64,000 bases of DNA. It comes from Earliella scabrosa. Its lineage: Eukaryota > Basidiomycota > Agaricomycetes > Polyporales > Polyporaceae. Position numbers and translations under genes: made by a program. Under the pieces are notes generated by a model. That model saw only the letters and a list, made by a program, of their open reading frames with translations. It searched no databases and was not told the origin of the DNA. Within the stretch, counting starts at the first letter, position 1. Each line of letters starts with the position of its first letter. Shown here piece after piece: positions 20,610-24,918 of the stretch. The stretch spans positions 248,001 to 312,000 of the forward strand of contig JABYQQ010000008.1 in NCBI GenBank assembly GCA_022605405.1, in the 5' to 3' direction.

Positions 20610-22235
20610 ATGTCCATCGCCAACAAGCTCTCCATCACCGACCTCGACCTCAAGGGCAAGCGCGTCCTCATCCGCGTCGACTTCAATGTCCCCATGCAGG
20701 ATGGCAAGGTCACCAACCCCGCCGTACGTGCTCTCCGCGTCTCTTTCTATCTAAGCGACTCACATCCGGCCTACAGCGTATTGTAGCTGCCCTCCCCACT
20801 ATCAAATACGCCATTGAAAATGGTTCGTTCTCCTAATGGCCACCGCTCAAGTCATGACCTCACCAACCTGCAGGCGCCTCCAAGGTCGTCCTCATGTCCC
20901 ATCTTGGCCGTCCGGACGGCAAGGTCAACCCGAAGTACTCGCTCGAGCCTGTCTCCCACGAGCTCGAGAAGCACCTCGGCAAGCCCGTCACCTTCGTGAA
21001 CGAGTGCGTGGGCCCCGAAGTCGAGAAGGCCGTGAACGAGGCTCCCGAGGGCGCAGTCGTTCTCCTCGAGAATCTCCGCTTCCACATCGAGGAGGAGGGC
21101 TCGTCCAAGGACAAGGACGGTAAGAAGACCAAGGCCGACCCTGCGAAGGTTGCAGAGTTCCGCGAGGGTCTGACCAAGCTCGGCGACGTCTACGTGAACG
21201 ACGCGTTCGGTACCGCCCACCGCGCGCACTCGAGTATGGTCGGCGTGAAGCTCTCCCAGCGCGCTGCAGGCTTCCTCATGAAGAAGGAGCTGGACTACTT
21301 CGCGAAGGCTCTTGAGCACCCCGAGCGTCCCTTCCTTGCCATCCTTGGTGGCGCCAAGGTGTCTGACAAAATCCAGCTCATTGAGAACATGCTTGACAAG
21401 GTAATAGGAAACTATACGGACCGTTGAATCACTCTCATATCATCTATGTTAGGTCAACTCTTTGATCATCTGTGGCGGCATGGCCTTCACCTTCAAAAAG
21501 ACACTCGAAAACGTCAAGGTAAGTCGAGGCATCGCATACGACGTCTTCAGTTCTGACTGTGAGGCGTTAGATCGGCCAATCTCTGTTCGACGCACCCGGA
21601 TCAGAGAAGGTCGCTGCGCTGGTCGAGAAGGCCAAGGCGCGCAACATCAAGATTGTCTTCCCCGTTGACTACGTCACGGCTGACAAGTTCGACAAGGATG
21701 CGAAGGTACGTGGGTCTACTGGCTTCCATTGCGTACCAACTCCTCACTCCCAAAGCCAGACTGGTCAAGCTACTGATGAGGAGGGTATTCCCGACGACTG
21801 GATGGGTCTCGATGCTGGCCCGAAAAGCCGCGAACTGTTCCGTCAGACTGTCCTTGAGTCGAAGACAATCCTCTGGAATGGGTGAGTAGTCGTTCATGTA
21901 TCTCGAGCAACAACACGCAGACCTTACGACGAATGCAGTCCTCCTGGTGTCTTCGAATTCCCCGCATTCGCTGCCTCGTCAAAGGCTCTCCTTGATGCCA
22001 CTATCGAGGCCGCACAAAAGGGAGCCACCGTCATTGTTGGCGGTGGTGATACCGCGACCGTTGTCGCGAACTACGGCGCGGAGGACAAGCTCAGTCACGT
22101 CAGCACCGGCGGTGGTGCCAGTCTTGAGCTGCTCGAGGGCAAGGTGTGTTGTGACCTTCATATCCTGTATTCCGGAAAACTCAACGTGGCCTGTAGACTC
22201 TGCCTGGTGTCGCCGAGTTGAGCGAGAAGCAGTGA
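20610..22235 (+). CDS. PGK1: phosphoglycerate kinase
   Basis: Glycolytic enzyme that makes ATP and 3-phosphoglycerate from 1,3-bisphosphoglycerate. Eight exons (20610-20723, 20777-20822, 20874-21400, 21453-21518, 21571-21705, 21760-21881, 21939-22143, 22197-22235) give 417 residues, the normal length. Seen: the RVDFNVPM substrate motif, [58 protein letters not shown], and the nucleotide-binding [11 protein letters not shown] and [13 protein letters not shown]. It ends GVAELSEKQ. Very GC-ending codon use fits high expression. Convergent with eRF1. Confidence 0.97.
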
Positions 22236-22555
22236 GTGGATGATGAGTCAAGAGAAATTATCGAGAAGTCATTTGTTGTATCTCTACTAGGACTTGGACA
22301 GTTAGGCTGTAATTGCTAGTCATTAGACGTGTCCATAGATCTATGAAGGACATCGCCTGAACGCCCTGCCCATGCACAGGGGCAAGCTTGCGTATTTCGC
22401 CAATGACTAGAGTTGATATGCTGTTGAATGTCATCGTTAGACTCTCGCGTGATCTGTCGTGACACAATTGATGGCATTTTCGTAGATACTGGATACTGAG
22501 TGTTCACAAGGCTACAACTGAGATGATCGAATAGCAACGACAACGGATGATACTA

Positions 22556-22980
22556 TCACAACATGTGCGTCGAGAAACAAATACACAATGTGGGACGATT
22601 GAGAGATCTGCACAAGATCAGCAAAGAAGTAAATAGAGAATTGAGGGGAGGGACGCGCACCTTGACGTGATAGACACGTCTCGTATGAGTGACGATGGCG
22701 CAGGGAGCATCGCCCAGTCTCCCTTGCCATACTTGTCGCCGCTCTTCAGCGGCATGACCATCCTCGTGATCTTCCTGCCTTCGACACCGTACGCAATCTC
22801 TCCGTAGGACGTGACCGGCCGCAACGGCGAGCTTGCGTCAATCGCCTTATGCGTCGACAGGACCACCTTCGTGGGTACAACCTCTCTAGACCCGACGCTC
22901 ACCCCCGACATCCCTCCGCCCCCCGCCCCACCCGGCGTGCCCAAGCCTGGCGGGGCTCCAGAATGGAGCCACCAGATAAG
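22556..22980 (-). other. in-frame extension of eRF1 past its stop codon (candidate readthrough product)
   Basis: After the eRF1 TGA (22983-22981) the same frame stays open for 120 codons to a TGA at 22620-22618. If a well-formed 53-base intron (22660-22608; GTGCGC, CTGAT branch, GTGCAG) is removed, it runs 123 codons to a TGA at 22558-22556. The sequence begins LIWWLHSGAPPGLGTPGG and continues with coding-like stretches such as VTSYGEIAYGVEGRKITRM and KSGDKYGKGDWAMLPAPSS, with GC-ending codons like those of eRF1. No known domain is recognised. A separate overlapping gene is possible, but the only ATG-led version starts inside this frame. Confidence 0.55.
22608..22660 (-). other. predicted intron downstream of the eRF1 stop codon
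   Basis: Donor GTGCGC, branch-like CTGAT about 13 bases before the acceptor, acceptor TTGTGCAG, 53 bases long, typical for this genome. It lies about 320 bases after the eRF1 stop, beyond the usual 50-55 base limit that triggers nonsense-mediated decay. Listed high-to-low because it lies on the minus strand (span 22608-22660). Confidence 0.5.
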
Positions 22981-22983
22981 TCA
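22948..22983 (-). promoter_or_regulatory. candidate stop-codon readthrough element (TGA-C plus hairpin)
   Basis: The eRF1 stop is TGA followed by CTT. Ten bases downstream GGCTCC (22970-22965) pairs perfectly with GGAGCC (22959-22954) across a 5-base loop, and an outer TGG can pair with CCA (22950-22948). A leaky UGA-C context with a stem-loop 8-10 bases downstream is the arrangement reported at several eukaryotic readthrough sites. Confidence 0.5.
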
Positions 22984-24554
22984 GATGTCATCGTCGTCCG
23001 ACATGAACTCGTCGTCGTCGTCATCAACGCTCTGCAGGTTGGTGAAGTCAACCTTGTACCGGAGGAGACCGCCGATGCCACCGAAGCCCTTGACGAACTG
23101 TGCGCCCTCTTGCGAGCGGTTAGTAACGAACTCGAGGTTGGCACCGAACTCCTTGTACTTCTCCGCGAACCACTCGAGGAGCGACTGCGGGTCGCAGACC
23201 TTCTCCATTTCGAGACCGGTCGACTTGTCGATGAATCGTTCGCGCTCCTTCTCTTGCTCCTTGTTCACGTGAATGACGACCTCCTCTACAACGCTCCGTT
23301 GAGTATATGCGTGTGTCCGGTAAGCAAGCTCCACATACCGCCGGCCGCATTCCGGAGCACATATCGGGTGATGTCAAGGTTCTCCCATACAATCAGCGTC
23401 TCCACGGCACCAAGTTCAAGCGCCTTCAGGGTGTCGTCGATACCGAAGCAGTACTTGCCGGTATCCTGGCTGATCTCGTCGAAGTACTTCTGGATCAGCT
23501 TCTTCTCCTGCACGAATTTGACGTTCGAGAGGGCCTCCGCGGCAAGTTCAATGGCCTAGGATAGGGAGTGAGCTCCACAAACCTCGAACTGAACAAAGTG
23601 CGTAGCATACCTGGTTGAAACCGTTCTCGCCACCGTAACTCACGTCGACCACCTTGATGACCTTGGCAGCCAAACGAGGGTCGAACATGTCGCTCTGGCT
23701 GAGCTCGGTCTTGAAGTCCGCGCTACCCGCGAGGACAAGACCAGTCACGTTGACTTTGTCGTTGGTAATGAAGTGCTGTACGGCCAGTTCGGCAACCTTC
23801 CGCACGTAGTTGTGGCGCTTCTCGTCACGAAGACGCGCGAAACGCAATGCGGACTGACCACCACGGCCGTGCTTCTTGGGGAGATCGACGGTGAATTTGT
23901 GGATGACTTCGCGGGTGTTACCAGCAACCGTGCCGAACAGAGTGCCGTTACCGTCCATAACGATGAAGCCGAACTTCGAGTCAGACTCGAGAAGTTCCTG
24001 AAGCGCCTCAGTATGGAACTTGTTGTCGCAGAGGTATAGGGAACTGTCTGTGATGTCAGATGGCGGTAAAGGAAGTGACATCGGTGCAACATACGTATTG
24101 ATGGGCTTGTGGGGCTCAAAATCGAAGGACACCTTCTTTTCCTTGCCTTCATCCGTGAGGATCGTTCCGACGAACAGGACCAGGCCATTCGGCGGTACAC
24201 GGTTGTACAGCTTGAGTCGCTGCTGGGTCGAAGTGATGGCTGCCAGTACAGACAACCGATTGACTCGGGATTTGATGTTGGATGCCGTGCCGTACTCTTG
24301 CGTCAACATGGCGGATACTCGAGATATTTGGTCCTAGGCTGACGTTGAGTCGATCGGACATCGATCTTATCCACTGGAGCACACCTTTGGGGGGATGATG
24401 AGGGAGATCATAGAAGTCCCCGCTCTAATTGCGCGATGAGTCTAAAGTCGTTGAATAACGATGGAGGAGCGTACCCTCTGGCGGCGTCGAGGCTCTTGAT
24501 GAGCTTCTTGACCTTCCACATCTGAATGTTTTGCTCCGCTGGGTCTTGACTCAT
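22981..24554 (-). CDS. SUP45: eukaryotic peptide chain release factor 1 (eRF1)
   Basis: Recognises all three stop codons and triggers peptide release with eRF3. The start [20 protein letters not shown] and the first introns splice cleanly ([15 protein letters not shown]). Seen: the stop-codon-recognition motifs NIKS ([11 protein letters not shown]) and YxCxxxF-type KYCFGIDD, and the peptidyl-hydrolysis GGQ motif in [20 protein letters not shown]. The C-terminal eRF3-binding domain follows ([19 protein letters not shown]), and an acidic end [14 protein letters not shown], where other eRF1 proteins also end. About seven introns. Oddity: the frame continues open for 120 codons after the TGA; see separate entries. 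Convergent with PGK, divergent from POP7. Confidence 0.96.
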
Positions 24555-24918
24555 CTTGGCTCAAGAAACGTCGTCAACAAGGGAACACTTTTGTACAGAG
24601 ATAAACGCAGGGACAGAAGATGAGAGGCGAAAGCAAGAGACGGGGCGGGGAGTCTGCGAGGTAAACAGATCCTGCCAGGCGCATGCTGGTCAAAATTTCG
24701 GCCACTTGTCACGATGGGCGCCAAAATAGACTTATCTTCCCTGATGGCCACTTATTGGCAGTGATAAGCCACCTATCGTTTCAAAAGGTTTCCAATGGCG
24801 CAACATGTCCGGCCCGGCCACAGAATTGAACGTAACCAAGTTTGTGTGCACTCTCACTCCGTCTCTCCTCCCTACTACTGTCCCTCTTCGTCCTTCTGGT
24901 GATCTTGCAGCGGCGGCT
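24555..24918. promoter_or_regulatory. shared promoter region between eRF1 and POP7
   Basis: About 360 bases between divergent starts. It has direct repeats of the kind GCCACTT/GATAAGCCACC around 24710-24775 and a CT-rich stretch before the POP7 start. No clear TATA box. Confidence 0.35.

Follow-up and report, generated by a model that had tools for sequence, protein, structure and literature searches.

The eRF1 gene of the agaricomycete Earliella scabrosa has a UGA-CU stop, a coding-like downstream frame and a candidate 3' UTR intron, and is tentatively predicted to be controlled through readthrough and decay

A stretch of 64,000 nucleotides from Earliella scabrosa (contig JABYQQ010000008.1, positions 248,001 to 312,000) was analysed and is referred to as the window, and all positions are given in its numbering. 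An eRF1 gene encoding 437 amino acids in six exons was located on the minus strand at 22981..24554. The exons were placed by eye, preserving the eRF1 sequence, at 24554-24475, 24424-24385, 24333-24095, 24043-23611, 23555-23339 and 23285-22981, the last including the stop codon. The predicted protein matched the NCBIfam family TIGR03676 (aRF1_eRF1) with 443 bits, which identified the gene as eRF1. It matched the eRF1 of PDB entry 1dt9 with an E value of 4e-216, and the eRF1 structures in PDB were aligned over residues 4-435. A single eRF1 gene was detected when the 51.7-Mb assembly was searched. A second eRF1_1 match, on contig C5, was rejected as another eRF1. It had no eRF1 match and corresponded to pelota in two pieces, each below the family cut-off. 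In addition, the assembly gave 38 hydrophobin matches, with hydrophobin-like genes clustered on contigs C8, C19 and C38, and at least 150 matches to DUF6533. These two families are indicative of fungi and of agaricomycetes, and their presence gives the genome an agaricomycete-like look. An eRF1-like stretch was also observed in a MAG filed under Verrucomicrobiaceae (JAIYDP010000269.1, L026:3001-3288), where it was 52% identical over query residues 1-84. This contig is probably a eukaryotic contaminant.

The preliminary description of this DNA had proposed that eRF1 controls its own mRNA through readthrough of its stop codon and decay caused by a downstream intron. It had placed the normal end of the protein at an acidic tail followed by TGA and then C. 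This was confirmed: the protein ended with ...FMSDDDDI, the TGA was found at 22983-22981 (minus), and the next bases were CTT. The exon 6 sequence had 912 relatives at E ≤ 1e-10, of which 120 were listed. The acidic tail ended all 120 of the listed relatives, with a length of 25-30 residues compared to 26 here, and a fused tail past the eRF1 end was absent from all 120. Since the listed relatives all end at the same acidic tail, we took the TGA as the true end of eRF1 and not as a sequencing error. One database protein, P0002, was exactly identical to eRF1 exon 6 but departed from the translation of the end of intron 5 at three residues. These three differences indicated that P0002 probably came from a diverged lineage.

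At the stop of 22981..22983 (minus), UGA was followed by CUU, and the sequence therefore contains UGA-CU, the core motif of readthrough. Such a UGA-CU is reported to suffice for readthrough in the basidiomycete Ustilago maydis (PMC4207609). In human cells, a readthrough of 0.27% is given for the stop UGA CUU G, compared to 2.29% for UGA CUA G (PMC4359377). From these two values, the eRF1 context was considered leaky in kind and perhaps weak. In 264 kb of the genome, 5.4% of 8889 TGAs were followed by CT, and the TGA-CT context was found in 0 of 19 TGA-ended control ORFs. By its sequence context, UGA CUU fits the leaky stop of the proposed circuit, although CUU is perhaps weaker than CUA.

A 6-bp hairpin 10 bases past the stop had also been described. 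It was present, and it can alternatively be drawn as a candidate hairpin of 7 bp with a UUC loop at 22954..22970 (minus). A stem of at least 6 bp was found in 5.6% of 3000 shuffles and at 3.9% of 888 random TGAs. When 70 nt around the stop were folded, the result was better than for most shuffles (z −1.9, with 6 of 200 shuffles as good), and six of the seven hairpin pairs were formed. When 151 nt were folded, the minimum-energy structure lacked the hairpin, had a z of 0.03 and was no better than shuffles. The hairpin was weakly significant. No Rfam family reached its gathering score within 22200-24700.

The reading frame past the stop stayed open for 120 codons unspliced and for 123 codons when 22660-22608 was removed, as the preliminary description had stated. 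The first part of the candidate readthrough extension, defined by open frame and codon choice, comprised 106 full codons and two bases at 22661..22980 (minus). Its end, of about 16 codons with in-frame tandem stops, lay at 22553..22607 (minus). The tandem stops were TGA at 22558-22556 and TAG at 22555-22553, adjoining each other. The unspliced frame ended earlier, at a TGA (22620-22618) inside the candidate intron. The first methionine of the extension was codon 24, at 22911. By chance, shuffling gave an open frame of 120 codons in 2.3% of 5000 sequences, a sample of 15,335 stop codons gave one in 3.9%, and 2 of 41 control ORF ends stayed open for at least 106 codons. Structure prediction of the 120-residue extension from two sequences gave a mean pLDDT of 40.7, which was uninformative.

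The codon content of the extension was then compared with that of real coding pieces and of shuffled sequences. The GC content at the three codon positions was 0.57, 0.57 and 0.75 (shuffle p 0.008), and this periodicity was sharper from codon 24 (p 0.0003). Synonymous codon choice was scored with the amino-acid sequence and the local base composition taken into account, and 1500 dinucleotide shuffles served as the null. The extension had a synonymous z of 3.11. Of 136 real coding pieces, 65% scored no higher than this, and only 1 of the 1500 shuffles was as high. The other five frames of the region gave z values from −0.87 to 2.07, and ORFs in other frames of real genes were as high as the extension in 5 of 123 cases. 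The signal came mainly from codons 41-105. The earlier claim that the extension shares the GC-ending codon choice of the gene was upheld by the third-position GC of 0.75, but the synonymous signal was weak over the first 35 or so codons and became strong only at around codon 41. Readthrough must translate the first 23 codons, and these gave a z of 0.39. This value was uninformative, with 22% of 705 real 23-codon pieces no higher. After codon 24, the z was 3.41, and inside the candidate intron, where there are few codons, it fell to 0.2. The raw codon frequency score of the extension was 0.048, which was at least as high as only 24% of the 136 coding pieces, and 11% of 654 mid-sized ORFs matched it. 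The coding-like character of the extension is the strongest single point for the circuit.

A gene on the plus strand over the extension was considered and rejected. Two plus-strand ORFs had no Pfam match, and the synonymous z of the antisense frame was 2.07 compared to 3.11 for the extension. The corresponding synonymous p values were 0.024 for the plus-strand frame and 0.002 for the extension. The antisense frame had one stop inside and a raw codon score of 0.149. Because this raw score was above that of the extension, a plus-strand gene was considered unlikely and no more than that.

Splice-site scoring gave a candidate GT-AG intron of 53 nt, GTGCGC...CTGAT...GTGCAG, at 22608..22660 (minus). 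Its score was 14.1 bits, the best on its strand in 741 nt for lengths of 45-70. The 12 introns of the eRF1 and phosphoglycerate kinase (PGK) genes scored 9.2-20.7 and were 50-57 nt long, compared to 53 for the candidate. An equally good intron was found in 55% of 400 shuffles for lengths of 48-60 nt and in 75% for 45-70 nt. On the opposite strand of the stretch, an intron-like match scored 14.6 compared to 14.1 for the candidate. Under a poorer branch-point model, an 83-nt stretch at 22489-22407 outscored the candidate, and 49% of shuffles matched the candidate. The well-formed intron that had been described about 320 bases past the stop was present as a candidate that scored like real introns but also like shuffles, and it was no better than chance. 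Among the 12 introns of eRF1 and PGK (20724-24474), the best branch-point-like motif was CTCA in nine, not CTRAY, and donors fitting GTRNGY were found in ten.

The layout of frame and intron was examined jointly. The candidate junction lay 320 nt past the eRF1 stop, compared to the more than about 50 nt that the circuit would require, and the spliced frame ended 52 nt past the junction, at a TGA directly followed by TAG. A frame that was open through an intron this good and for at least 24 nt beyond was found in 102 of 3000 shuffles (3.4%). When introns weaker by 3 bits were allowed, the same layout was found in 12% of shuffles. If the candidate intron is real, the predicted readthrough frame passes its junction. 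Splicing that would skip the eRF1 stop was rejected. The best candidate for it, at 23098-22956 with a score of 13.8, was 143 nt long, far above the 50-57 nt of the eRF1 and PGK introns, and shifts the frame. Only one of the ten listed stop-skipping candidates kept the frame, with a score of 6.6.

The PGK gene lies convergent to eRF1 on the plus strand. Its TGA stop at 22233-22235 overlapped the sequence GTGAGT at 22232, which fits the splice donor consensus. A 59-nt GT-AG stretch reaching to 22290 would skip this stop and give the C-terminus ...SEKQTWTVRL. The 59-nt stretch was searched for a CTNA(C/T/A) branch-point motif, and none was present. To our knowledge, VRL does not count among the standard peroxisome signals. 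In fungi, peroxisomal glycolytic enzymes are reported to be made by alternative splicing and readthrough (PMC4207609).

The preliminary description had called for an alignment of the extension in relatives. This was made at the protein level only and gave a single near-identical match with no fusion to eRF1. The match, P0001, is a protein of 97 amino acids from a 592-base contig. It was 98% identical to the extension, with two residues different. The match started at the methionine of 22911, and the 13 residues encoded inside the candidate intron were unchanged. No further homologue of the extension was found in Pfam, NCBIfam or the protein database. None of 271 candidates for a fusion of eRF1 with the extension reached E ≤ 1. 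Among the 120 listed of the 912 exon 6 relatives, ten were at least 92% identical, and they came from contigs of 562-2210 bases. Finding only P0001 despite these ten close relatives on short contigs counts against wide conservation of the extension protein, and it is still compatible with a shared layout. Neither viral_contigs nor genome_contigs, each scanned once, yielded DNA of a fungal relative. A weak match between the extension and the delta subunit of coatomer (E 0.0042) was attributed to chance, as the stretch is rich in Gly, Ala and Pro. Two weak matches in the own genome besides the locus itself (E 0.25 and 0.86) were also judged to be chance.

These features can be arranged in the following circuit. 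Some ribosomes would read through the leaky UGA-CUU, possibly aided by the GC-rich structure just downstream. These ribosomes would continue in frame across the junction left by the spliced 3' UTR intron and terminate 52 nt further on, at the tandem stop. In doing so they would clear the exon junction complex (EJC), and the mRNA would be spared. When eRF1 is plentiful, ribosomes would stop at UGA, the junction 320 nt downstream would stay marked, and the mRNA would decay. Domains of Mago_nashi, UPF1_Zn_bind and Smg4_UPF3 were found encoded in the assembly above the cut-off. With these three domains present, decay linked to the EJC could in principle operate. The circuit proposed in the preliminary description was in part supported by the UGA-CU context, the coding-like codons, the frame past the candidate junction and the EJC and NMD domains. 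The tandem stop at the end of the frame and the finding of a single eRF1 gene also speak for it. On the other side, the intron was no better than chance, and the extension had no detected relatives except P0001. The weak hairpin, the low synonymous z of the first 23 codons, the unremarkable raw codon score, the higher raw score of the antisense frame and the low readthrough of UGA CUU G in human cells also count against the circuit. Self-control of the eRF1 mRNA through readthrough and 3' UTR-intron decay, as reported for Neurospora and plants, is a tentative reading that we place slightly short of an even chance. The circuit in this fungus is a prediction at that same level, and we infer from the sequence the splicing, the readthrough, the decay and the dependence on the eRF1 level. 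In a stronger form, the extension would be an amino-acid-constrained, translated tail of eRF1 as well as a shield from decay, making a low-level isoform whose amount would report termination efficiency. We regard this form as very unlikely.

One alternative is an ordinary 3' UTR that is GC-rich, open in the eRF1 frame by chance and carrying a chance intron-like motif, with only the usual leak at the stop. The chance rates were 2-4% for the open frame, 4-6% for the hairpin and 55% for the intron motif, and two of the 41 control ORF ends were open for at least 106 codons. The lack of homologues beyond the near-identical P0001, the 151-nt fold that resembled shuffles and the low raw codon score also agree with it. 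However, the triplet periodicity (p 0.0003-0.008) and the synonymous choice (1 of 1500) fit translation, and the UGA-CU context and the joint layout, at 3.4%, also speak against an ordinary 3' UTR. We consider it rather unlikely. If the region is translated, readthrough might still proceed without splicing, through 120 codons to the TGA at 22620-22618, and would give an extended eRF1 or protection from long-3'-UTR decay. The intron lacks statistical support, and the 13 intron-encoded residues were unchanged in P0001, as this explanation would expect. Against it, the title of the N. crassa paper reports that a 3' UTR intron acts on eRF1 in that fungus, and the codon signal fades inside the candidate intron (z 0.2, few codons). 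It is quite unlikely in our estimate.

The extension could also be a small ORF of its own, or a second cistron, that starts at the ATG of 22911 (codon 24) and is translated independently of eRF1, from its own or a shared transcript. The rise of the codon z from 0.39 before codon 24 to 3.41 after it is in line with such an ORF, and the match to P0001 begins at the same methionine. However, P0001 came from a 592-base contig, and the point where it begins is therefore a poor guide to true initiation. The ORF is in the frame of eRF1 with no stop between them, and it has no family and no further homologue. A small ORF of this kind was judged decidedly unlikely.

eRF1 is said to be among the fungal cases of 3' UTR introns and NMD treated by Zhang and Sachs in 2015, and Kurilla et al. 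in 2020 reportedly proposed the circuit for many fungi. Autoregulation of erf1 in Neurospora crassa by readthrough and 3' UTR-intron NMD is given in the title of Kurilla et al. 2020 in FEBS Lett, and 3' UTR introns and NMD in fungi are the topic of Zhang and Sachs 2015 (both cited in PMC10578600). The N. crassa gene is, like the one described here, a fungal eRF1 gene, and the title of that paper names readthrough, a 3' UTR intron, decay and autoregulation. The circuit is reported as shown there, whereas it is predicted from sequence here, and N. crassa belongs to a different phylum. The preliminary description had cited the plant circuit as a precedent but had not mentioned the fungal one in N. 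crassa. The N. crassa report makes the mechanism likelier here and its novelty smaller. In Arabidopsis, readthrough of the eRF1-1 stop is described as shielding the mRNA from decay (PMC9293766, citing Nyiko et al. 2017). The logic by which readthrough protects the mRNA is the same, and that gene is a plant gene in which it was demonstrated by experiment. As described in PMC9293766, a footprint survey saw none in the Arabidopsis eRF1-1 extension. The UGA-CU context is shared with readthrough in U. maydis and animals, where the extensions studied carry peroxisome signals (PMC4207609). In contrast, the extension here would end with HML when spliced and LLC when unspliced, neither of which is of the SKL type.

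Among the top-ranked titles of the open-licence literature, no basidiomycete or agaricomycete instance of the circuit was found. What was observed agrees with a known circuit occurring in a new lineage, of which this gene would at most be a new, predicted example. If the prediction is true, the feedback of eRF1 through readthrough and decay would extend past an ascomycete and plants to an agaricomycete. This would suggest that one sensor of termination efficiency is either deeply conserved or was invented repeatedly. In such fungi, UGA-CU readthrough would then have a regulatory role as well as one in peroxisomal targeting.
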